NCBI RefSeq assembly: GCF_011045835.1
Contig: NZ_CP047349.1
Coordinates: 2,418,001-2,482,000, forward strand
DNA: 64,000 nucleotides
Source of the DNA: Proteus terrae subsp. cibarius
GTDB taxonomy: Bacteria; Pseudomonadota; Gammaproteobacteria; Enterobacterales; Enterobacteriaceae
Direction of reading: 5' to 3'
Shown: one piece after another, positions 1-8,356 of the stretch
Numbering within the stretch: position 1 is the stretch's first letter
How the letters are laid out: each line of letters begins with the position of its first letter
Position numbers and translations under genes: made by a program
Notes under the pieces: model-generated
Seen by the model: only the letters and a program-made list of their open reading frames with translations
Told to the model about the DNA's origin: nothing
The model's database searches: none

Positions 1-549
1 CTCCATTGCATCATATTCAGCATTGAGACTTGCTAAAATATGGGCTTCAGCCACACCATTGTTATTAACCAATCCTCTTTGATAATCTAATACCGACATA
101 GAACTTTTTAGAAAATCAATACTTTGTGTTACTGAATTAATTTTATCTTGAGTTTCACTAATATTAAGATCAATATTTATTGGTTCATCAAGTGATAAGC
201 CCAACATACCCACTAAGATTTCTTGCAAGAATTTATCAAACTCTTGCGTTCCCATTAGCGCGCTTTTAACAATGCTTTGAATTGAATTTTCAACGATTAC
301 AGAAGCACTTGTAATTTCATCACTATTAAATGAAATACTTATGTCATGATCTTCGGGTAATTCACCAAGATTGAGATGAATTTCTTGAACAAAATTATAG
401 AAACTAGTGATACCGTCTGAAACACCCTGCTCAATATTTTTCATCTCAACAAGGATTTCATCTGCCGATTTTCTGATATTTGCTAATGCACTATCAGATA
501 CTTCAGCCTCCAACATCAGTACCTGAGAAAATACCTGTAATAGAGACAT
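1..549 (-). CDS. Candidate tail tape-measure protein, N-terminal part (runs off the left edge)
   Basis: The minus-strand frame is open from an ATG at 547-549 to the window edge, giving at least 183 residues without a stop. The start overlaps the stop of the frameshifted chaperone product by one base (TAATG), which suggests translational coupling. The visible part is acidic, rich in Ser, Glu, Ile and Leu, and looks helical with many predicted coiled-coil-like stretches. No catalytic motif is visible. In contractile and siphophage tails the gene directly after the frameshifted G/GT-type chaperone is normally the tape-measure protein, which sets tail length and enters the target envelope. The call rests on this position, not on recognised sequence. 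The rest of the gene lies outside the window. Confidence 0.55.
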   Translation of the reverse strand, partial: MSLLQVFSQVLMLEAEVSDSALANIRKSADEILVEMKNIEQGVSDGITSFYNFVQEIHLNLGELPEDHDISISFNSDEITSASVIVENSIQSIVKSALMGTQEFDKFLQEILVGMLGLSLDEPINIDLNISETQDKINSVTQSIDFLKSSMSVLDYQRGLVNNNGVAEAHILASLNAEYDAME

Positions 550-1090
550 TATCTCTCCTTTGACGCGGCAAGCGCCTCGTTATAACGATTAGTAATCGCG
601 ATCTCCCACAGATCAAAGGCTTCTTCTAGATCTATGGTTGTTTTGAGTTCTGTGAAGGAGGCGAAACCCGCGGAGATGATGACTGCAAAGAAGCCATCAG
701 CGTTTTTATAATCGACGGGAGAGAACCGCTGAACTTGCCTAGAAGGTATTGTAGGAAATTTTGGCTCCCGTCTTTGCCGAAAAAACTGGTATTGTACTTC
801 AACATTTCGAGCTCAAGACGGATCAAAGCTTCTCCATCGGGTACATGATTATCAATTAATGTGCTGGTTTTTAGATAAATTTCTTGCCCTTCTTTTTCGA
901 TTGCAACATAAGCCATCATTTTTAACATGGCTTCTTTGCTAACTTCATAATCACCAATTTTGGGTGCATTTGATAAAGGGTATTTAGCAAGAATTTCTCG
1001 TCCAATCGTTGCAGGTAATCGGCTAATAATAAAAGTGTGTTCTTCACGATCACTATCAATAACAGTGATCTCTTTTGGTTTAATTAACAT
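549..1090 (-). CDS. Tail assembly chaperone, extended GT-like product made by -1 frameshifting
   Basis: This is the predicted second product of the chaperone gene. Ribosomes read codons 1-112 in the zero frame, slip back one base on the heptamer AAATTTC (minus strand, 761 down to 755), and continue in the -1 frame to a TAA at 549-551, giving about 180 residues. The -1 frame after the slip reads as a sensible protein ending, including the stretch FFAVIISAGF and an end with DLWEIAITNRYNEAL. This helical ending resembles the T domains of other tail chaperones as I remember them. The stop overlaps the start of the downstream candidate tape-measure gene. In lambda the G and GT products bind the tape measure and recruit tail tube subunits. 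The frame and heptamer are seen; the function is inferred. Confidence 0.7.
632..1090 (-). CDS. Tail assembly chaperone, short G-like product
   Basis: The zero-frame product is 152 residues. It starts MLIKPKEITVID, and its middle (about residues 85-115) contains a leucine-rich helix followed by SFFGKDGSQNF, after which the slippery site lies at codons 110-112. The last 40 residues of the zero frame are rich in Ser, Pro and Gln and look like out-of-frame filler, as expected when the functional extension lies in the other frame. It lies between the candidate tube gene (1153-1605) and the candidate tape-measure gene (ends at 549), the usual place for tail chaperones. A terminator-like hairpin (1104-1125) sits just before its start. 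The exact family is not recognised; the assignment comes from gene order and the frameshift signal. Confidence 0.65.
   Translation of the reverse strand: MLIKPKEITVIDSDREEHTFIISRLPATIGREILAKYPLSNAPKIGDYEVSKEAMLKMMAYVAIEKEGQEIYLKTSTLIDNHVPDGEALIRLELEMLKYNTSFFGKDGSQNFLQYLLGKFSGSLPSIIKTLMASLQSSSPRVSPPSQNSKQP
755..761 (-). promoter_or_regulatory. Programmed -1 ribosomal frameshift heptamer AAATTTC
   Basis: The heptamer is in the correct phase (A AAT TTC in the zero frame) to allow tandem slippage to AAA TTT. This is the canonical X XXY YYZ form. The -1 frame stays open for about 68 further codons and ends exactly at the downstream start codon. I did not find a clear pseudoknot by eye downstream. 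Confidence 0.75.
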
Positions 1091-1103
1091 AATTAAATTC
1101 CAT

Positions 1104-1125
1104 AAAAAAGGCGACCGAAGTCGCC
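1104..1125 (-). terminator. Terminator-like hairpin between tail tube and tail chaperone genes
   Basis: On the minus strand the sequence GGCGAC TTCG GTCGCC is followed by six T residues, giving a six-base-pair GC-rich stem with a UUCG tetraloop and U run. It lies inside the tail operon, 28 bases after the candidate tube gene ends. It could be a partial terminator that lowers expression of the chaperone and tape measure relative to sheath and tube. Confidence 0.65.
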
Positions 1126-1152
1126 ATTACATTAAATGAATAACGCTAAAAA

Positions 1153-1605
1153 TTAACGTGCTCTGACACGATCAAAGTCTTGGAAAATAAAGGTGTATTG
1201 CTTAGATTTAAGGCGAGCATTGTTTGATATTGAATTACCACGGCTACCATTAGTAATTCTGCCATTACGAGCAGTGGTAATAGAACCATCACCATAAGAA
1301 GCCACTAGTGTAATAATATCGCTTGCATGACGACGTCCTCGTCTTGCTGTATTTGCATCAAGCAAAATAGCCAAGTTTTCATCTTCTTCGCTACCTGCTA
1401 ATACGTTGATTGTCACAGTTTGAGGTGTAGGTGCCGACCAACTCACTAAATTACCATTAATATCTACTGCGGTTGCTGTAATATCGACAGCCGGTAAATC
1501 TAATGGATCACCCTCATCCGAAAATGTGGTAATAGGAATACCTGCAGGAAATGTGTTACTTGCCTGAATAATTAAACTCAAACCTGTTGCTGAAATATCG
1601 TTCAT
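1153..1605 (-). CDS. Candidate tail tube protein
   Basis: A 150-residue protein beginning MNDISATGLSLIIQ. Residues 10-70 look beta-rich, with alternating Thr/Val/Ile, and the C-terminal half contains an Arg-rich patch (TARRGRRHASD, about residues 85-95) and ends in FQDFDRVRAR. It sits 10 bases after the sheath gene, and in contractile tails the tube gene follows the sheath almost without exception. The beta-rich character and size fit a tube protein, which forms the inner tube that is driven through the target envelope. I do not recognise a named family with certainty. The alternative is another small tail structural protein. Confidence 0.55.
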   Translation of the reverse strand: MNDISATGLSLIIQASNTFPAGIPITTFSDEGDPLDLPAVDITATAVDINGNLVSWSAPTPQTVTINVLAGSEEDENLAILLDANTARRGRRHASDIITLVASYGDGSITTARNGRITNGSRGNSISNNARLKSKQYTFIFQDFDRVRAR

Positions 1606-1615
1606 TGTTTGTTCC

Positions 1616-3103
1616 TTAAACTAAATTATGTGAGCCTTCAACTTTACGAACCCAATCGCCTTTACCATAAATTAATACATATTTCATAGTGTATTCTGGT
1701 AAATTTGAAGGACCTGTTTCTTCAACGATTTCAGCGTTGTACCAATAACCTTTGTTTTGTACATCGTGCCACGCTAAATCATCACCTGCTGCATCTGTAA
1801 TTGCGATTTTTTGTACTTCAGTCAGCATTTTACTGGTAAGAATAGTGCCATTGTTTAATGCTTTCGTGACAGCGCCGGCAATAACCATCATGGCTCTTGC
1901 TTCTCCATCTTTATTAGCGGGGATCCCGCGAGTTGAAAGTAATAGACTCAACCACTGCTGTGCAATATAGGCTTTTAGCCATTGCTCATTAGTATGAACA
2001 CTCATATCTAATGGATTAGAGGCATTTCCACATAAAAAACCACGTTGATAGAAACTAATATCAGTACCAGTAACAGCCGTTTCACCGTAGTAGTTCACGC
2101 GTAATTTATCTAATCGATCAGCTGCAATATCTGTCTTAACTTGAGATGGGAAAGTGATACCAAATTGGCGATACATATAGTTAGTAGTCGCGTTTGTGCG
2201 ATCAAAATCTGTTGCCGCCATAATTGCCATAGGTAGAGCTTGAACAAAAAAGCCGTCATCTGTTTTTAAATTTAAGCCTGTTGATGCCGTACCAATTAAT
2301 GCTTTACTGTAAATTTCAGCTTGTTTATCTGGAACTGACAAATAGAGCTGATATTTTACATTTTCACCTGCAATGTACTCTGCGAGCTCAACACTTTGCT
2401 CTACCGAAAGCTCGGTTAAGAATGTCGCACTACCAAATGAATCAGAAATCGCTTCGGCAGCGATAAATGCTTGAAGAGCTGTTTGTGCAACATTACCTTC
2501 AGATGCCTCTCCGTCACTTAATCCCATAGCATCAGCTAAAGGCGAATGTTCCATAGTGATCGTCGCTTTTTCTTGTACACCACCACTCATCAAGAAAGCA
2601 CCATCAAGCGCATTAAAAGTAACGTAGCAACTTGCAAATTGAGGCTCACTTTCAGCGTTTAGTTTTGCTTGAATAAGAGAAGCAACATCTGCGTAAGACT
2701 CAATCTCAGTCAGTGAAATACCCGTAATATTTTTGGATATATCACCAATAGTTAAACTCAGTGTCCCTTCTTCAATTTGCTTTAATTTATCAAGTGTTGC
2801 TGCTGGTGTACCAAATAATGTCGGTGCCCGACCTACAGGTTCAAAAGAAGCAATTTGTAGCTCTTTAGGTTTGCTAATAGGCGCAGGACTAACATAACTA
2901 AAATATTGACGAGCGAATTTAGCTTCTAGTGATCCTGCGCCAAGCAACTCATCCACTTGCCCACTGGCAAATTCAAGCACTTTCCCCGCTGGAATTTTAG
3001 GATTTGTTGAGAAAATACGAGCTGTAAGTTTGCGCATAGGTGCAGCCGATGCACCAACAATCGCGCTCGCAATATCAATATAGCGAGTTTGTTTAATAGA
3101 CAT
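1616..3103 (-). CDS. Contractile tail sheath protein (DUF3383-like)
   Basis: A 495-residue protein of the size and character of myophage tail sheath subunits of the DUF3383 type, as I recall that family: an N-terminal beta-rich stretch, a GNAS-like Gly/Ser-rich segment, and a C-terminal region with VLIYGKGDWVRKVEGSHNLV. The sheath contracts and pushes the inner tube through the envelope of the target. It is followed by the candidate tube gene and preceded by a small candidate tail terminator gene with a 9-base gap, so it lies in a tail module. No head gene precedes the module on this strand. The sheath call is well supported by size, family resemblance and order; whether the particle is a phage or a tailocin cannot be told from this gene alone. 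Confidence 0.75.
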   Translation of the reverse strand: MSIKQTRYIDIASAIVGASAAPMRKLTARIFSTNPKIPAGKVLEFASGQVDELLGAGSLEAKFARQYFSYVSPAPISKPKELQIASFEPVGRAPTLFGTPAATLDKLKQIEEGTLSLTIGDISKNITGISLTEIESYADVASLIQAKLNAESEPQFASCYVTFNALDGAFLMSGGVQEKATITMEHSPLADAMGLSDGEASEGNVAQTALQAFIAAEAISDSFGSATFLTELSVEQSVELAEYIAGENVKYQLYLSVPDKQAEIYSKALIGTASTGLNLKTDDGFFVQALPMAIMAATDFDRTNATTNYMYRQFGITFPSQVKTDIAADRLDKLRVNYYGETAVTGTDISFYQRGFLCGNASNPLDMSVHTNEQWLKAYIAQQWLSLLLSTRGIPANKDGEARAMMVIAGAVTKALNNGTILTSKMLTEVQKIAITDAAGDDLAWHDVQNKGYWYNAEIVEETGPSNLPEYTMKYVLIYGKGDWVRKVEGSHNLV

Positions 3104-3111
3104 ATTTATCC

Positions 3112-3624
3112 TTAAATACGATATAGATTAGAAATAAGTAAATTTGTAGCAGCAGTGTCTAAAGATAAAGTGCTGGAAAATGTGATATTAAAATCAAATG
3201 AAGGATTATGCTCATAGCTATTTCCAGCATTTATTATTGGCGATCGTCTAATTTCGCTCGCTCGTTGTATCCCTATTCCCACTTTTCTCATTGATTCAAC
3301 AAAAGACAGCGAATTAATAATCATTCGAGTCATTCTAACTAAATCACCTGCTGTTAAATTTGAATGTTGTTTAATAAAACCTTGTACCTGAAGTGTTAAT
3401 TCAAACAGTTGTTGCTCTTTATGATTTGCATTATTACCCTGAATATTATAATTTCTTTTTTGCCAACCTTGGCCAACCTCCTTTATAGGGAAAAACATAA
3501 TAATATTATTATCTTGTATTTTTTCTGGCTGAAAACCAGCAATAACATCAACATTAATATCTGCTGATTTGAATTGTTTTAATAGTTGTTCACGAATGGC
3601 AATATTAATATCATTATCTTTCAT
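3112..3624 (-). CDS. Candidate tail terminator / neck protein (LIC_12616-like)
   Basis: A 170-residue protein that starts MKDNDINIAIREQL, has a beta-strand-rich core with IIMFFPIKEVGQGWQ near residues 42-56, and ends in FSSTLSLDTAATNLL. Proteins of this size directly upstream of DUF3383-type sheath genes are usually annotated as LIC_12616-family or neck/tail terminator proteins, which cap the tail tube and would join it to a head. In a tailocin the same protein would cap the head-distal end. The family assignment is from memory of gene order and general character. The gene ends 9 bases before the sheath start and begins about 95 bases downstream of the spanin gene. Confidence 0.5.
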   Translation of the reverse strand: MKDNDINIAIREQLLKQFKSADINVDVIAGFQPEKIQDNNIIMFFPIKEVGQGWQKRNYNIQGNNANHKEQQLFELTLQVQGFIKQHSNLTAGDLVRMTRMIINSLSFVESMRKVGIGIQRASEIRRSPIINAGNSYEHNPSFDFNITFSSTLSLDTAATNLLISNLYRI

Positions 3625-3719
3625 TTCACCTCCTTAATATAACTCTCCTTTTCTTTAAAAATATTTAATCCATTTTGTTTATAAATATTTTATTTATTAT
3701 AAATTACTTAAATGGATTT

Positions 3720-4169
3720 TTAATTAATACATTCTTGGCTAATATAATCTTGTAAACCTAAAATGATCTGTTCTGACTGAGCAATTCGTTCTCTGAGTAT
3801 CCAATAATTTCGGATAGCGGTGTCAGTAGGTCTGGCGGAGTTTGCATTAACCAAGCTGGTGGTGGGAGTGGCTGAGGCTTTAGGACACTCTGCTTTGATA
3901 TACACCCGCTCAGGAGCACGCTTACTAATATCACGCAGCTGATCAATTTCTTTTCTTGCATGAACAAGTTCCTGTAAATGTCGATTATCAAGTTGATTAA
4001 GCCGATTTATTCTTAATTGATAATCTTTATTTTCTGCAATCTGCTGAATAAGAGATTGATTAATATTGTCGTATTCCTGTTGCAAAGATTTGTTTTTATC
4101 AATTAACCAGAGTAATACTATTCCTAAGCATAAAATCGCTATTAGCATTATTTTTGATAAATAATTCAT
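3720..4169 (-). CDS. Rz-like i-spanin (inner membrane spanin subunit)
   Basis: A 149-residue protein with a single N-terminal transmembrane segment (residues 7-23, IMLIAILCLGIVLLWLI) followed by a long periplasmic coiled coil rich in Gln, Asn, Leu and Arg (about 28-85). This is the typical Rz i-spanin plan. Together with the Rz1 lipoprotein encoded inside it in another frame, it would fuse inner and outer membranes at the end of lysis. Its start overlaps the stop of the candidate endolysin gene by four bases, so holin, endolysin, Rz and Rz1 form one lysis cassette. The C-terminal part is normal length, so the gene appears intact. Confidence 0.85.
   Translation of the reverse strand: MNYLSKIMLIAILCLGIVLLWLIDKNKSLQQEYDNINQSLIQQIAENKDYQLRINRLNQLDNRHLQELVHARKEIDQLRDISKRAPERVYIKAECPKASATPTTSLVNANSARPTDTAIRNYWILRERIAQSEQIILGLQDYISQECIN
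3758..3961 (-). CDS. Rz1-like o-spanin lipoprotein, embedded in Rz in another frame
   Basis: This frame lies wholly inside the Rz gene. Taking the internal ATG at 3959-3961 gives a 67-residue protein starting MQEKKLISCVILVSVLLSGC. It has a positively charged start, a hydrophobic signal segment and a lipobox LLSGC, followed by a short proline-rich mature part (PQPLPPPAW). This is exactly the plan of Rz1 outer-membrane spanins. An upstream ATG at 3989-3991 would add ten residues before the charged start and is less likely. It pairs with the i-spanin across the periplasm. The nested arrangement is as in lambda. Confidence 0.85.
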   Translation of the reverse strand: MQEKKLISCVILVSVLLSGCISKQSVLKPQPLPPPAWLMQTPPDLLTPLSEIIGYSENELLSQNRSF

Positions 4170-4570
4170 AGCATCAACCAGGCATCTTCAAAAACTTTCT
4201 CTGAATAAGGTTGATAGCCAAGTTCAATATTGACAATAGCAACTGCTAAAGGAATGGTGATATTTTTTAATTGTGTATTAATTGGGTTGTTAGCATCAAT
4301 ACCAATTTCTTTTGATGCTCGGCTAATATAGCCTGCTGTATTATTTTCGTTAGGTGGAGCATAACGATTAATAATCGTTCTAATGGTATTTAAACCATAT
4401 TTTTTTTGGTAAGTTTGTAATAATTTGTAGATAGCTCGTATACCATATTCAGGTGAAATAAATTGACAAAAATCTTTATCTGTTTGCTCAACGGATAATC
4501 CCTGCCATTTCGAACCATGCCGGATATTACCCGGATTATGATTACGCTCACCTCGTGCTATTTTAGCCAT
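4166..4570 (-). CDS. Candidate endolysin / peptidoglycan-degrading structural protein
   Basis: A 134-residue protein with the N-terminal motif ERNHNPGNIRHG (residues 8-19), then a conserved-looking FISPEYGIRAIYKLL (about 37-51) and NRYAPPNENNTAGYI (about 68-82). Proteins with this NPGNIR...PEYGxRA pattern occur in enterobacterial prophage lysis cassettes in place of a classical lysozyme; they are often called structural protein or endolysin. It has no signal peptide. It lies between the holin (start overlaps the holin stop by 8 bases) and Rz (4-base overlap), which is the endolysin slot. The exact bond it cuts is not evident from the sequence. Confidence 0.65.
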   Translation of the reverse strand: MAKIARGERNHNPGNIRHGSKWQGLSVEQTDKDFCQFISPEYGIRAIYKLLQTYQKKYGLNTIRTIINRYAPPNENNTAGYISRASKEIGIDANNPINTQLKNITIPLAVAIVNIELGYQPYSEKVFEDAWLML

Positions 4571-4871
4571 TTTTAACTCCTGCTCTCCCTTTAAGGAGTT
4601 TACTCACGGAATCCACTCCAACATAGCCAATAAATACACTGGCTAAGTAAGCAAACTCATGATTAATATTAAATAAAATTAAGATGTCTTTTACGAACCA
4701 AGCAAACATTGCACACATCAGCCCATCTATAGAGGTTTTTTTCCATCCTCCGCCGTTATATAAACCTCGAAGAATAGCCATTCCTCCAGCTAGAGAGGCT
4801 GATATTCCTTGCTCTTTCATTGAAGAAAGAACAATAAATACCTGTTCCCATAGATCTGGATTTTCTTTCAT
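4563..4871 (-). CDS. Phage holin, lambda-holin superfamily type
   Basis: A 102-residue protein with two or three membrane segments: a weak one around residues 24-40, a clear one around 50-66 (LMCAMFAWFVKDILILF) and one around 73-90 (AYLASVFIGYVGVDSV), and a basic C-terminus ending in KGRAGVKNG. This size and plan fit phage_holin_3-type (lambda family) holins, which make holes in the inner membrane and time lysis. It is the first gene of the lysis cassette, after the leader with two terminators, and overlaps the endolysin gene by 8 bases. Confidence 0.8.
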   Translation of the reverse strand: MKENPDLWEQVFIVLSSMKEQGISASLAGGMAILRGLYNGGGWKKTSIDGLMCAMFAWFVKDILILFNINHEFAYLASVFIGYVGVDSVSKLLKGRAGVKNG

Positions 4872-5003
4872 TGTTTCTCATGGCTTACCTCCAATAGGAG
4901 GAACTGTAATAAATCATATACTCATCTACAGCACTTAAATTTAAGCACTGTTTTAATATGAGTATCTTTATGTTTTATTTATCTAATTAGATAAATGGAG
5001 AAT

Positions 5004-5030
5004 ATAAAAAAAGACCACATTGTGGTCTTT
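5004..5030 (-). terminator. Rho-independent terminator in the late leader
   Basis: The arms AAAGACCACA and TGTGGTCTTT form a ten-base-pair stem with a tiny loop, followed on the minus strand by a run of seven T residues. It lies between the candidate late promoter and the lysis genes, so transcription of those genes would require readthrough. Confidence 0.75.
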
Positions 5031-5090
5031 AATTGAAGATAAAATTTAACAGATATCATTAATTTATATTAGTTAAGAAAATCGAGAAAC

Positions 5091-5164
5091 AAAAAAACCC
5101 CACCGAAGTGAGGCTCTTTATATTCTGTTGTGAGGTCTTTAGATACAAATCTCTCACTGTGGGG
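5091..5164 (-). terminator. Structured terminator just after the candidate late promoter
   Basis: On the minus strand CCCCACAGTGAG (5164-5153) can pair with CTCACTTCGGTGGGG (5112-5098), and a run of seven T residues follows. The long interior (5113-5152) may form its own small stem. The position, starting within a few bases of the predicted transcription start, resembles the promoter-proximal terminator of lambdoid late operons. Confidence 0.65.
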
Positions 5165-5166
5165 AT

Positions 5167-5195
5167 ATAGTATGCTTTTTTTTCCTGAAGGTCAA
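5167..5195 (-). promoter_or_regulatory. Candidate Q-dependent late promoter
   Basis: On the minus strand a -35 element TTGACC (5195-5190) is separated by 17 bases from a -10-like element TACTAT (5172-5167). It lies between the end of the Q gene and the two terminators. The -10 matches the consensus at only four of six positions, so this is a candidate only. Confidence 0.5.
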
Positions 5196-5234
5196 TAACT
5201 AATTTCTACAACTAGAAATAAATATAGAAAATTA

Positions 5235-6050
5235 TTACTTAACAGTTACTTCTTGAAGAATTTTTTCTGACAAGGACTCTTCTTTAAAGCATTCTTCAAC
5301 TAAAAGTTCAAATAACGGCTTATAATTACTGTAGGCAACAGTTTTAGAAACACTCACTACCGTTTGTACTTGTTCTAATACTTCGCTGAATTTTAGACGA
5401 GGATATCCACGTCCTAAACATTGATTACAAGGTTTGAAAACAGGCATACTCTGTTTTTGACTCTCTTTTTTATCTAAAACTTGACCACGTCCATGACAAC
5501 GACATGCCAAACGAATTTCGGCTTTTCCCTTACATGTAGGGCAAATAACTCGAGTTATCTCTCTCACTTCACGGTAAGAAGTCTTATTTATTGGTTTAAC
5601 TTTAAGATCATCTTTGAGATTTTGCTCAAGCTCTTTAACCGATTTTGAGGTGTAGCTTTTAGTGGTAAAAACTTCAACCTCAATAAATCCGTTACTACAA
5701 TCAGGACACGCTTTCTTACTTGCAGCACTTCTTGCGTAATCTTGAAAAGCATAATTAGCAATGATCTGCAAAACTTTAGCTTTATCGTTTTCAGTTAATT
5801 TATCAATCGCTTTATATTGATAAGCTTGGGTTAATGCATATTGGTAAAGGCTTTCTATCGCTTCGCTTGGGTTACTAATACTATGTTTAGCTAAAAACAA
5901 TTCTATTCCCATGCGTCCTTTTCGCGTTGCTAGGCTAATTGATGTCATTACATCGGTTACTGAGAGTGAATCTACCGCTTTAACAGTTCTCACATCACTT
6001 AATACAATGCTTTTTGGTGAAAAATATTTAGGTAAGTCTGCTAGTCTCAT
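5235..6050 (-). CDS. Phage antitermination protein Q
   Basis: A 271-residue protein with the plan of the larger Q antiterminators of lambdoid phages such as phage 82. The first 125 residues are a mixed helical domain. A zinc-binding, DnaJ-like Cys cluster follows: CPDC near residue 116, CPTC near 171, CRCHGRG near 182 and CNQCLGRGY near 205. The C-terminus is helical. Q proteins load on RNA polymerase at the late promoter and let it read through terminators into lysis and morphogenesis genes. Here the gene is directly followed by such a leader (two terminators) and the lysis cassette. It is divergent from the CI-type repressor with only about 240 bases between them, with no cro, cII or replication genes, which is unusually compact. 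Confidence 0.85.
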   Translation of the reverse strand: MRLADLPKYFSPKSIVLSDVRTVKAVDSLSVTDVMTSISLATRKGRMGIELFLAKHSISNPSEAIESLYQYALTQAYQYKAIDKLTENDKAKVLQIIANYAFQDYARSAASKKACPDCSNGFIEVEVFTTKSYTSKSVKELEQNLKDDLKVKPINKTSYREVREITRVICPTCKGKAEIRLACRCHGRGQVLDKKESQKQSMPVFKPCNQCLGRGYPRLKFSEVLEQVQTVVSVSKTVAYSNYKPLFELLVEECFKEESLSEKILQEVTVK

Positions 6051-6186
6051 TTAATGCTCCTGTTGATTTCCTATCACTACTCATTGGTCATCCATGTACC
6101 ACGACAAGGCATGGCATTTATGCATCTAAATCACCCGCATTTTACGGCGTTATCTCAACGTGATTTTTACTTACCACTCTTGTTTT

Positions 6187-6201
6187 GGTTTATTTAGTTA
6201 A
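6187..6201. promoter_or_regulatory. Degenerate third repressor operator candidate
   Basis: GGTTTATTTAGTTAA shares the half-site TAGTTAA with the two better operators at 6226-6240 and 6282-6296, but the other half is poor. It lies on the Q side of the intergenic region. Confidence 0.3.
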
Positions 6202-6225
6202 TTTCTTGTGCTTTTTGCACTTTTA

Positions 6226-6240
6226 TTAACTAATAGTTAA
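6226..6240. promoter_or_regulatory. Repressor operator candidate 1
   Basis: TTAACTAATAGTTAA is a near-perfect 15-base palindrome in the spacer between repressor and Q genes. It lies just upstream of a possible -10 element (TATATT, 6244-6249) for the repressor gene. The same motif recurs at 6282-6296. Confidence 0.6.
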
Positions 6241-6281
6241 TGCTATATTTTAACCAAGGTGACGTCAAGCAGCAAAGGAAA

Positions 6282-6296
6282 TTAACTAATGGTTAA
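6282..6296. promoter_or_regulatory. Repressor operator candidate 2, overlapping the repressor start codon
   Basis: TTAACTAATGGTTAA differs from operator 1 by a single base, and its centre is the ATG of the repressor gene (6289-6291). Binding here would block transcription of the repressor itself, so autoregulation is likely. Confidence 0.6.
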
Positions 6297-7026
6297 AATC
6301 GATAATAAAACGGAGTTCACAAAAAGGCTTCAAGAAGCTTGTTTAGATTCAGGGATTGCTGGTCGTGGGTTAGGTAAAAGAATTACAGATGCACTTGCTG
6401 AACAAGGTATAAAAGTCAGTGCTCCAGCAGTGTGGAAATGGCTAAATAGTGAATCAATTCCCGATCCAACGAATATTTTAGCATTAAGTCAATGGCTCGA
6501 TGTTCGAGCAGAATGGTTAGAATATGGGCGAGGAGCAAAAAGAAACGATGGTGTTTCAGTCAATGAAATGACACCTGTTGATGATTGGGATAATAATACA
6601 CCGATAGAACGAGATGAAGTTGAGATCCCCTTCTATACTACTATTGAATTAGCTGCCGGTTTCGGAAGTTGTACCACAGATAATCAAAAGGTGGAGTTAT
6701 TGAGATTTTCTCGTTCTACATTTAATCGCTATGGCGTTCAACCTAGTGATGCCGTTGCTTTTAAAGTTCATGGTGACAGTATGTCCCCTGTTATCCCTGA
6801 TGGTTCAATTGTCACTATCAGTACAGGACATACAAAAATTGTTGATGGCGGTATTTATGCTATTCAACAAGGTGATCTTTTGAGAGTCAAAATTTTACAT
6901 CGACTTCCCAATAACACCATAATCATCCGTAGCTATAACACTATTGATTACCCAGATGAGCGTTCTACATTAGAAGAAGTAAAAATTTTGGGCCGAGTAT
7001 TTAATTGGTCCGTGATGGGTTGGTAG
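6289..7026 (+). CDS. CI/LexA-type phage repressor with S24 peptidase domain
   Basis: A 245-residue protein with an N-terminal helix-turn-helix DNA-binding domain (about residues 10-75, including GLGKRITDALAEQGI and VSAPAVWKWLN) and a C-terminal S24 peptidase domain. The catalytic Ser is in HGDSMSPVIPDG (about residue 164) and the Lys in LLRVKIL (about 203). The self-cleavage site is probably the AG pair in ELAAGFG (about 122-124). Such repressors cleave themselves when RecA is activated, so the island should be induced by DNA damage. A ribosome binding site AAAGGA lies 9 bases before the ATG. The gene is divergent from Q, and near-identical palindromes lie upstream of and over its start. Confidence 0.9.
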   Translation: MVKIDNKTEFTKRLQEACLDSGIAGRGLGKRITDALAEQGIKVSAPAVWKWLNSESIPDPTNILALSQWLDVRAEWLEYGRGAKRNDGVSVNEMTPVDDWDNNTPIERDEVEIPFYTTIELAAGFGSCTTDNQKVELLRFSRSTFNRYGVQPSDAVAFKVHGDSMSPVIPDGSIVTISTGHTKIVDGGIYAIQQGDLLRVKILHRLPNNTIIIRSYNTIDYPDERSTLEEVKILGRVFNWSVMGW

Positions 7027-7094: not shown

Positions 7095-7213
7095 TATTCA
7101 ATAAAATCAACTTGTTAAACAATATTTTTCTTATAAAGTTCCTATTGAATTTTATTATTTTAAAAACCATAAAAAAAGTAAAAAATAAAACTTCATTCAA
7201 TAGGAGAACTAAA

Positions 7214-7654
7214 ATGACTAAACTTATAGTAACTGACTCAGATACTGAGAATAAATTTTATCCTACCAATATTTCATTTAATGCTGATGGTAATACTTAC
7301 TTACTTTCCATGAGTAAGGATAAAGAATATATGACAAGAACAGTTCACCCATCAGGCAAACTGATCCGTGACCCTTTAGCTGATAGTGGTACTTTTGCAT
7401 ATTATTATGATTATATGAGCATTGCTTATGATGCAGTCACAGGTAAACAGTATTTATGTTGCATTTCAACAGAAAACAAATATTTTGAGCTTTTCTTAAT
7501 ACAAGATAGTGGAAAATTAACCTCTACAAATACGTTTAGCTTCGTTAAAGGCTTTAACCGAAGCATTGCTATATTTATCATCAACAGCAAATTCTTTGTT
7601 TATATCCAAAATGAAACAACTAAGTACTGGGAAGTGATGTCAATTAGCAAATGA
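7214..7654 (+). CDS. Hypothetical protein at the island edge
   Basis: I do not recognise this protein. The ATG at 7214 has a good ribosome binding site (AGGAGA, 7202-7207) and gives 146 residues beginning MTKLIVTDSDTENKFYP. A longer frame from 7112 lacks such a site and adds only a Lys/Ile-rich leader. The protein is rich in Tyr, Phe, Ser and Thr with alternating strands (for example TYLLSMSKDKEYM and QYLCCISTENKYFELFLI). This suggests a beta-propeller-like or beta-sandwich fold of repeated blades. It has no signal peptide or membrane segment. It lies alone between the repressor and the tRNA operons in AT-rich DNA, as a cargo gene (moron) of the island might. Confidence 0.6.
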   Translation: MTKLIVTDSDTENKFYPTNISFNADGNTYLLSMSKDKEYMTRTVHPSGKLIRDPLADSGTFAYYYDYMSIAYDAVTGKQYLCCISTENKYFELFLIQDSGKLTSTNTFSFVKGFNRSIAIFIINSKFFVYIQNETTKYWEVMSISK

Positions 7655-7726: not shown

Positions 7727-7802
<76 letters not shown>

Positions 7803-7808
7803 TAATTC

Positions 7809-7896
7809 TGGCGGAAGGATAGAGATTCGAACTCTAGGATGGTTTCCCATCGGCGGTTTTCAAGACCGCTGCCTTCAGCCACTCGGCCATCCTTCC
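7809..7896 (-). tRNA. tRNA-Ser (anticodon TGA), copy A
   Basis: An 88-base class II tRNA with encoded CCA, acceptor GGAAGG, anticodon loop CTTGAAA (anticodon TGA), a long variable arm (GATGGGAAACCATC) and T loop GTTCGAA. It is the first gene of the two-tRNA operon and is identical to copy B. Confidence 0.97.
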
Positions 7897-7906
7897 ATAG
7901 CGCGGA

Positions 7907-7935
7907 ATTATGCCTATCTCTGGCCCCGCTGTCTA
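7907..7935 (-). promoter_or_regulatory. Promoter of tRNA operon copy A with GC-rich discriminator
   Basis: On the minus strand TAGACA (7935-7930), a 17-base spacer and CATAAT (7912-7907) are followed by a GC-rich TCCGCGC discriminator. This is typical of stringently controlled stable-RNA promoters. Confidence 0.8.
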
Positions 7936-8145
7936 GTCCTGATTGTAAAAAAAATGACTTTTTTATCTGTTTGCTCAATCTTCAAACGCTTTTTGCTTAA
8001 AAAATGCTAACCCACTAATATAATGGTTAATTTTTGATAACTATAGATAAAAAATCACAGTGATATCGAGAGATAAATGGAGTAATCCAAAAGGAATTAA
8101 ATAAAAATAAATAAGAGGGAAAGTGAAAAATAGAATGATAGATAA

Positions 8146-8182
8146 GAAAAAACCCGCTATCTCTTACGAGATAACGGGTTCT
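8146..8182 (-). terminator. Terminator of tRNA operon copy B
   Basis: The same 13-base-pair stem as in copy A, with a GTAA instead of a GCAA loop, followed by T residues on the minus strand. Confidence 0.9.
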
Positions 8183-8186
8183 TATA

Positions 8187-8262
<76 letters not shown>

Positions 8263-8268
8263 TAATTC

Positions 8269-8356
8269 TGGCGGAAGGATAGAGATTCGAACTCTAGGAT
8301 GGTTTCCCATCGGCGGTTTTCAAGACCGCTGCCTTCAGCCACTCGGCCATCCTTCC
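8269..8356 (-). tRNA. tRNA-Ser (anticodon TGA), copy B
   Basis: Identical to the gene at 7809-7896: 88 bases, anticodon TGA, long variable arm and encoded CCA. Confidence 0.97.

Follow-up and report, generated by a model that had tools for sequence, protein, structure and literature searches.

A repressor, an antiterminator, lysis genes and a contractile tail lie side by side in the chromosome of Proteus terrae subsp. cibarius, and the locus raises the question of whether such a set of genes is a weapon kept by the host or part of a phage. The window analysed here is the whole stretch G000:C1:2418001-2482000 (64,000 nucleotides, nt); its left flank was read as L009 (2398001-2418000) and L010 (2412001-2428500), labels of the form G000, G001 denoting genomes (G000 is the window genome) and those of the form L009, L010 denoting loci. 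The gene island occupies G000:C1:2410291-2425026 (14.7 kb), made up of window positions 1-7026 and 7.7 kb further leftwards (L009:12291-20000). Judged by its sequence, the island is very probably an R-type tailocin locus, because of its gene set, the fact that no head genes were found, its fixed site, the selection on its genes, its swapped fibre tips, its conserved operators and frameshift, and its head-bearing prophage relatives.

Gene content and the search for head genes

Genes were named from Pfam and PHROG profile matches of the 18 island proteins and from sequence matches in the PDB. Within the window the transcription order is Q, holin, endolysin, Rz/Rz1, terminator, sheath, tube, chaperone and tape measure, and the minus strand of L009 continues with Dit-like, plug, hub, spike, sheath initiator, baseplate J, DUF2612 and fibre genes. 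The contractile tail set (terminator, sheath, tube, tape measure, baseplate, fibre) is complete in the island. The genes named in a preliminary description of the window are present on the strands given there (open reading frames, Pfam, PHROG), and its call of a tail without head genes also holds for the next 20 kb leftwards, where baseplate and fibre genes are followed by host-type genes and no capsid, portal, terminase or integrase was found.

Head genes were sought in 74 other loci with six head proteins of the Proteus prophage L060 (portal, DUF2213, cement, capsid, DUF4054 and collar, identified by Pfam). None of the six matched in the 19 loci of the island site (L009, L010 and a further 17, drawn from 16 other Proteus genomes), and all six matched in each of the 55 other loci tested, which comprise six further Proteus prophages of about 80% identity, four family loci (L068-L071), four Xenorhabdus loci and 41 viral contigs; the remaining eight of 49 viral contigs, seven island contigs and L233, stood outside this test. 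An E217-type portal or capsid was likewise not found in genome G000, whereas the searches that gave this result were positive for G012 and G013, and in five further island genomes a capsid was found in none and a portal only as a weak relative in G014. Packaging, integration and replication genes were absent among the 18 island proteins as scanned with Pfam and PHROG, without a separate search for them.

The features are as follows, in window coordinates unless a locus is named:

6289-7026, plus strand: CI-type repressor with S24 peptidase domain (PF00717, 2e-19; PHROG repressor, 4e-45)
6282-6296: second operator-like palindrome, spanning the repressor start codon, 56 bp from the first (in 17/17 loci)
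6226-6240: first operator-like palindrome (TTAACN5GTTAA), lying where a promoter-like match directed at Q has its -10 end (in 17/17 loci)
5235-6050, minus strand: Q antiterminator, 271 amino acids (aa) (PF03589, 8e-39; PHROG Q-like, 3e-76)
5167-5195, minus strand: candidate Q-dependent late promoter, TTGACC-17-TACTAT (conserved; duplicated in P. vulgaris PR00166)
5092-5119, minus strand: first terminator-like hairpin after the late promoter (also in a 13-locus alignment)
5010-5030, minus strand: second terminator-like hairpin, between Q and holin (also in that alignment)
4563-4871, minus strand: holin, Phage_holin_3_1 (PF05106, 4e-25)
4166-4570, minus strand: endolysin (best PHROG endolysin, 3e-46; PDB 7q47 Endolysin, 3e-17; no Pfam match)
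3720-4169, minus strand: Rz inner-membrane spanin (PF03245, 3e-18; PHROG Rz-like spanin)
3758-3991, minus strand: Rz1 lipoprotein-like frame embedded in Rz (similar frame in tail-less loci)
3112-3624, minus strand: tail terminator/gateway (PF22756 E217_gp29, 2e-40; PF23961 terminator, 5e-8)
1616-3103, minus strand: contractile sheath, DUF3383 (PF11863, 8e-135; PHROG tail sheath; PDB 9b42, 8env and 8fvg, 2e-71 to 2e-70)
1153-1605, minus strand: tail tube (PF22764 E217_Gp32, 5e-55; PDB 9b42 'gp33 Tail tube', 1e-26)
632-1090, minus strand: putative tail assembly chaperone of 152 aa, so called for its position and frameshift (no Pfam or PHROG match)
549-785, minus strand: chaperone extension reached by a -1 frameshift (TTTTTTC as slippery site at 785-779, stop at 551-549)
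1-549, minus strand: N-terminal 183 aa of the tape measure, 767 aa, whole gene at L010:4246-6549 (PHROG tail length tape measure; no Pfam match)
L009:17761-18243, minus strand: Dit-like protein (Pfam Dit-like family)
L009:17422-17742, minus strand: baseplate plug (Pfam baseplate plug; PHROG category 'head and packaging')
L009:16641-17459, minus strand: hub (Pfam)
L009:15946-16638, minus strand: spike (Pfam/PHROG scan)
L009:15605-15949, minus strand: sheath initiator (Pfam match below cut-off; PHROG baseplate wedge)
L009:14425-15612, minus strand: baseplate J (Pfam/PHROG scan)
L009:13772-14428, minus strand: DUF2612 protein (Pfam DUF2612; PHROG category 'head and packaging')
L009:12291-13766, minus strand: fibre (Pfam/PHROG scan)

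Some of these names needed a choice. PF22764 and PHROG describe the match at 1153-1605 as 'tail fiber protein', and we name it the tube because it is placed after the sheath and matches gp33 of PDB 9b42. Plug and DUF2612 proteins are taken as baseplate components because of their Pfam names and the matching phage gene order. The Rz1-like frame contains LSGC, which we take to be lipobox-like. The frameshift proposed earlier for the chaperone is borne out by the conserved heptamer TTTTTTC and the open, strongly conserved -1 frame, which occur together in all 10 Proteus loci compared, in a prophage of Proteus and in a phage of Bordetella.

Control elements are conserved too. All 17 loci compared have the pair of TTAACN5GTTAA palindromes between repressor and Q, spaced by 56 or 57 bp and with varying centres, and the window holds three matches to this pattern against 0.09 expected; a promoter-like match at 6268-6240, directed at Q, ends on the first palindrome. 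Terminator-like hairpins exceed expectation (six sites in the 3 kb scanned, 1.3 expected), and the promoter-like element and the two hairpins between Q and holin align in 13 loci, with TTGACC/TACTAT of the window differing by at least one base in some of the others. The preliminary description had placed both a late promoter and terminators in this region: the terminators stand, and the late promoter is assigned because it is conserved across loci, the promoter scan itself giving it no support. The two conserved operator-like palindromes and the conserved frameshift site support an intact control, and self-cleavage of the repressor upon DNA damage is inferred from its S24 domain.

A working cycle can be proposed from these parts. 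The S24 repressor would occupy the two operators between itself and Q until, upon DNA damage, it cleaves itself and Q is made; Q would then let polymerase from the late promoter pass the two terminators, and one long transcript would yield holin, endolysin, spanins and a complete contractile tail. Bursting of the cell would free the headless tails, a single fibre would bind the surface of a rival strain, probably a glycan, and contraction would push the tube through the envelope and depolarise the target.

Distribution, selection and fibre variation

To place the island in the genus, 20 Proteus genomes were searched and the site was located via rcsD. A syntenic island occurs at one site, between DUF924/AraC and tRNA-rcsD, in nine of them (G000, G002, G003, G004, G008, G013, G014, G015 and G016, the contigs of G003 and G004 ending before rcsD), including P. 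terrae (G016), P. columbae (G004), P. cibi (G003) and Proteus sp. FME41 (G015). The conservation at one chromosomal site that had been put forward as a check was found. Entries L185-L191 of a viral contig collection are this island as well, not a complete virus (four at 95–96% identity, three of the P. mirabilis type).

Over nine orthologues, the mean ratio of non-synonymous to synonymous substitution rates (dN/dS) of the 17 non-fibre genes is lowest in repressor, spike and DUF2612 (0.03) and highest in Rz (0.24), the terminator having 0.20; the fibre has 0.22. This count uses the L053 fibre frame from after its stop and a shortened L052 holin. By this measure the island genes are under purifying selection. 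All 18 genes are full length in seven of the nine islands, and the tape measure has 767 aa in 9/9 orthologues. The fibre is conserved at its base and variable at its tip, identity being 90–98% in alignment columns 1-400, 76% in the 50 columns after these and 34–45% in the rest. There are at least four tip types, one of which is common to P. terrae and P. cibi, and the window's tip differs from that of P. terrae, though P. terrae is its nearest sheath relative. Gp53-like_C matches two tip types, and the tips of the window, L052 and L067 have no Pfam family.

Several points weigh against a working tailocin. An in-frame stop lies in the holin of P. terrae LMG 28659 (L052) and another in the fibre of G014 (L053), P. 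mirabilis ATCC 29906 (G007) has an island with broken sheath and holin frames, control and lysis genes stand without a tail in six of the 20 genomes, and G006 and G010 have nothing of the island at the site. Furthermore, the promoter scan is at chance level (12 promoter-like matches, 12.9 expected), the PDB search with the repressor gave no solved structure at 1e-5, no fibre chaperone was seen in the island, and the PHROG matches of endolysin, plug and DUF2612 carry the category 'head and packaging'. Terminase and integrase were not seen among the 18 island proteins scanned, without a dedicated search, and this limit has to be counted here too. As for ATCC 29906, its rcsD frame likewise carries a stop, and three viral-collection contigs 99% identical to its island have whole sheath genes.

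The stops in the P. terrae holin and the G014 fibre, the broken ATCC 29906 sheath and the tail-less control genes of six genomes could all be read as signs of a decaying prophage remnant, that is a tail and lysis fragment left after head loss with no kept function. We consider this improbable, given that 18/18 genes are whole in most islands, dN/dS stays low across species, tape measure length is constant, and operators and frameshift are kept while fibre tips vary; neutral decay would not spare all these features.

The tail-less loci are themselves of two kinds. G001, G012, G017 and G018 keep CI, Q, holin, endolysin and Rz (L108, L079, L080, L081), and in G009 and G011 Q is truncated and the set degraded (L075, L078); such loci may reflect either recent tail loss or a kept lysis device. 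An IS200/IS605-type element (by eye) at L078:13099-14750 adjoins the cut lysis genes of G011. In P. faecis (G005) the assembly breaks to the left and to the right of the site, a scrap of the sheath lying at one of the contig ends, and this genome is counted under none of these states.

The island is bounded on the left by an AraC-type regulator gene (L009:11292-12194), beyond which lie a DUF924-like gene and dmsABC-like genes (names by eye); host-type genes fill 12 kb past the fibre. On its right side the repressor is followed by an orphan frame of 180 aa, by the tRNA-Thr/Ser genes in duplicate and by a gene that looks by eye like rcsD. The orphan frame (window 7112-7654, TTG start) adjoins the repressor, has a 97% match in P. 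columbae and one of about 50% in G006, and matched no Pfam or PHROG family. The tRNA-Thr(TGT)/tRNA-Ser(TGA) pair is doubled in tandem at window 7727-8356, where the contigs of G001 and G005 stop. Insertion of the island at the tRNA genes is unsupported: the pair is doubled also in the island-free G010 and G006, and an integrase was likewise not seen among the island proteins.

Tail family, prophage relatives and remaining rivals

Pfam models named after phages E217 and Pam3, or the Dit-like family, match the tube, gateway, hub, plug and Dit-like proteins. In Pfam the sheath matches only DUF3383, and in the PDB only three phage gp31/gp32 sheath sequences, presumably those of E217 and a relative. 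Six island proteins (gateway, tube, hub, plug, Dit-like, sheath) share such models or chains with E217/Pbunavirus tails, and by these matches the tail is of phage E217/Pbunavirus type, not P2- or Mu-type, in line with the preliminary description, which had set the sheath apart from that of P2-type R-pyocins. Searched against 50,697 phage records, the sheath gave 408 matches, all below 60% identity, the best at 46%.

The annotated Bordetella phage vB_BaM-IFTN8, a prophage recovered with mitomycin C, has the same order of terminator, sheath, tube, chaperone, tape measure, baseplate and fibre, by size and position. Both vB_BaM-IFTN8 and E217, however, are whole phages in which the tail genes are preceded by terminase, portal and capsid genes, none of which was found in the island, and the lysis genes of vB_BaM-IFTN8 follow the fibre, whereas those of the island precede the tail. 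Nor does the island have the portal, capsid and collar upstream of the sheath that mark a complete E217-like prophage.

In a sheath tree of 89 rows, built by a quick method with support from the Shimodaira-Hasegawa-like approximate likelihood ratio test (SH-aLRT), the nine island sheaths form one clade (100), sister to seven Proteus prophages (96), and both sit among Xenorhabdus and other prophages of the family. The seven loci, about 80% identical and located elsewhere in Proteus, are prophages with head genes. Most likely, the island was domesticated from a Proteus prophage. A shorter tape measure was considered as a tailocin mark and rejected: the island protein has 767 aa, and those of six of the seven prophages have 752-753 or 840-841 aa (the seventh, L063, is broken and was left out of the comparison).

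Domestication may have happened more than once. From matches in at least 92 of 392 genomes we chose 60 family loci, and in a screen of 69 DUF3383 loci 15, this island included, were without the head clusters used; there were four such clusters, two called 'head' from position only, and some loci are cut by contig ends, which makes this a screen and not a proof. The other 14 (L120, L121, L123, L124, L125, L135, L144, L154, L158, L159, L162, L168, L176 and L177) are possibly further tailocins, several of them carrying repressor, Q or lysis genes beside housekeeping genes such as acpS-ferredoxin, and since they are scattered over several places of the sheath tree, taming may have been repeated. 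A short sheath form of about 380 aa, with about 100 mid-profile positions missing, is common in the family (e.g. L159:11983-13122).

The close kinship with head-bearing prophages of the same genus would also suit an ordinary myoprophage, complete or rearranged, whose head genes lie close by. This is very unlikely and is refuted for the site as far as it was read, with host-type genes in the 12 kb past the fibre, no head match at the site, and no matching portal or capsid found in G000 while the controls were positive. A tail donor or gene-transfer module, whose tails would be capped by another element's heads or package host DNA, might be suggested by another phage-type tape measure gene elsewhere in G000 (1373827) and by the E217-type prophages with heads in the island-bearing G004, G013 and G015. 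It is equally unlikely given the searches of G000 and the five further island genomes, in which no E217-type capsid and only the weak portal relative of G014 appeared, and the scan of the island proteins, which gave no terminase. An extracellular contractile injection system delivering toxin cargo would share the contractile tail at a fixed chromosomal site, but is the least likely reading, as the scan of the 18 island proteins gave no match to ATPase or effector families and every one except the chaperone has a phage tail, lysis or control match.

Known tailocins and a second tail type at the site

An R-type tailocin at this site can be set beside several known systems. R-pyocin and xenorhabdicin are P2-type headless contractile tails with a CI-type repressor and spanin, a fixed locus and variable fibre ends (PMC12090994, PMC13280938). 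Headless layout, control, fixed locus and fibre variation are shared with the gene set of the island; the P2-type sheath is not, DUF3383 standing in its place. Enterocoliticin of Yersinia, likewise an enterobacterial R-type tailocin, is described in PMC13030884 as having Mu-like tail genes, unlike the island.

The preliminary description had drawn a parallel to carotovoricin. According to PMC13195805, that locus lies between tolC_2 and ybiB; its holin and lytic enzyme genes are followed by sheath and tube, and its tape measure by a P2 GpU-family gene. It is inherited vertically at one site and exchanges fibres, and Pectobacterium betavasculorum and P. atrosepticum keep only its first five or seven genes. 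The parallel holds for the order of lysis then tail genes, inheritance at a fixed site, fibre exchange and species retaining only the first genes. It fails for the site, DUF924/AraC to tRNA-rcsD in Proteus, and for the gene after the tape measure, which is Dit-like here; tolC_2/ybiB and a GpU-family gene were not seen, and these two differences make the island an analogue of carotovoricin rather than a demonstrated member. Assignment of the headless loci L124, L125 and L159, beside acpS-ferredoxin, to carotovoricin had its origin in a ferredoxin gene mentioned inside the ctv cluster in PMC6813493, and was dropped given the tolC_2/ybiB site and the P2 GpU gene (PMC13195805).

Tailocins arose several times (PMC12090994), and the enterobacterial ones are P2-type, Mu-type or carotovoricin in the part of the literature covered. 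We found no paper naming this Proteus locus or a DUF3383-type tailocin in that coverage, outside which most subscription journals lie.

A different tail occupies the same site in P. vulgaris PR00166 (G019), where lambda-type tail genes lie between Q and holin (L082:2358-8426, L110:3477-14793). Q is followed by genes for a tube-like protein that carries an Ig-like domain, for a DUF6246 protein and for a tape measure of 1,120 aa (L082:3551-8426), and from the other side L110 holds M-, L-, K-, I- and J-like genes, a 348-aa protein and a fibre, then the holin. The tube match falls just below the Pfam cut-off, and the H-, M-, L-, K-, I-, J-like and fibre genes are above theirs. The two contigs do not overlap, so that sequence is missing between H and M; none of the other tape measures matched in the genus exceeds 55% identity, and the link is thus no mix-up with one of those. 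No E217-type head match and no head gene was recognised, siphophage head genes being outside the search and the gap lying between H and M, and no lambda U-like tail terminator was recognised in the two contig ends. The element of late promoter and hairpin is present twice, before the tube gene and before the holin, with 116 of 119 bases identical, and beyond Rz there remain a shortened terminator gene and a 186-aa contractile-type fibre end. A swap to an F-type tail is probable here, with an assembly gap in the locus, and on the best reading the flexible tail entered through recombination at the late promoter, with the contractile tail lost by a later deletion.

One lysis cassette serving different tails has precedents. 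In the R/F pyocin locus of Pseudomonas aeruginosa the R and F tails share a lysis cassette. The two-tailocin locus of Pseudomonas chlororaphis likewise has one cassette for different tails (PMC12090994). Both differ from the Proteus locus in phage ancestors and site, and unlike either, PR00166 has one tail replacing the other and a duplicated late promoter.

It is conceivable, and we propose it tentatively as somewhat short of an even prospect, that an ancestral Proteus switch of repressor, two operators, Q, late promoter and lysis genes serves as a chassis for exchangeable tails. The first tail would be the E217-type contractile one, tamed from a Proteus prophage; the lambda-type tail of PR00166 would have entered between two late-promoter copies, so that each module would have gained a Q-dependent start of its own, after which deletion would have reduced the contractile tail to terminator and fibre tip. 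Tail-less species would keep the chassis, possibly for altruistic lysis or as an acceptor standing empty. If this is true, E217-type tailocins would form a broader class in Enterobacterales that has yet to be named.

In Proteus vulgaris, particles that resemble phage tails and kill within the species were reportedly described by Coetzee et al. in 1968. Such particles are a plausible product of a locus of this kind; the title of that work and a sentence citing it tie no gene to them, and the island offers candidate genes for them. Its carriers include the human pathogen P. mirabilis. As a tailocin, the island would add the E217/Pbunavirus type to the phage lineages known as tailocin sources, and because its sister prophages in Proteus still have their heads, the change from a phage into a weapon could be dissected gene by gene. 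The PR00166 locus, finally, suggests that tail weapons may be exchanged without rebuilding their control.

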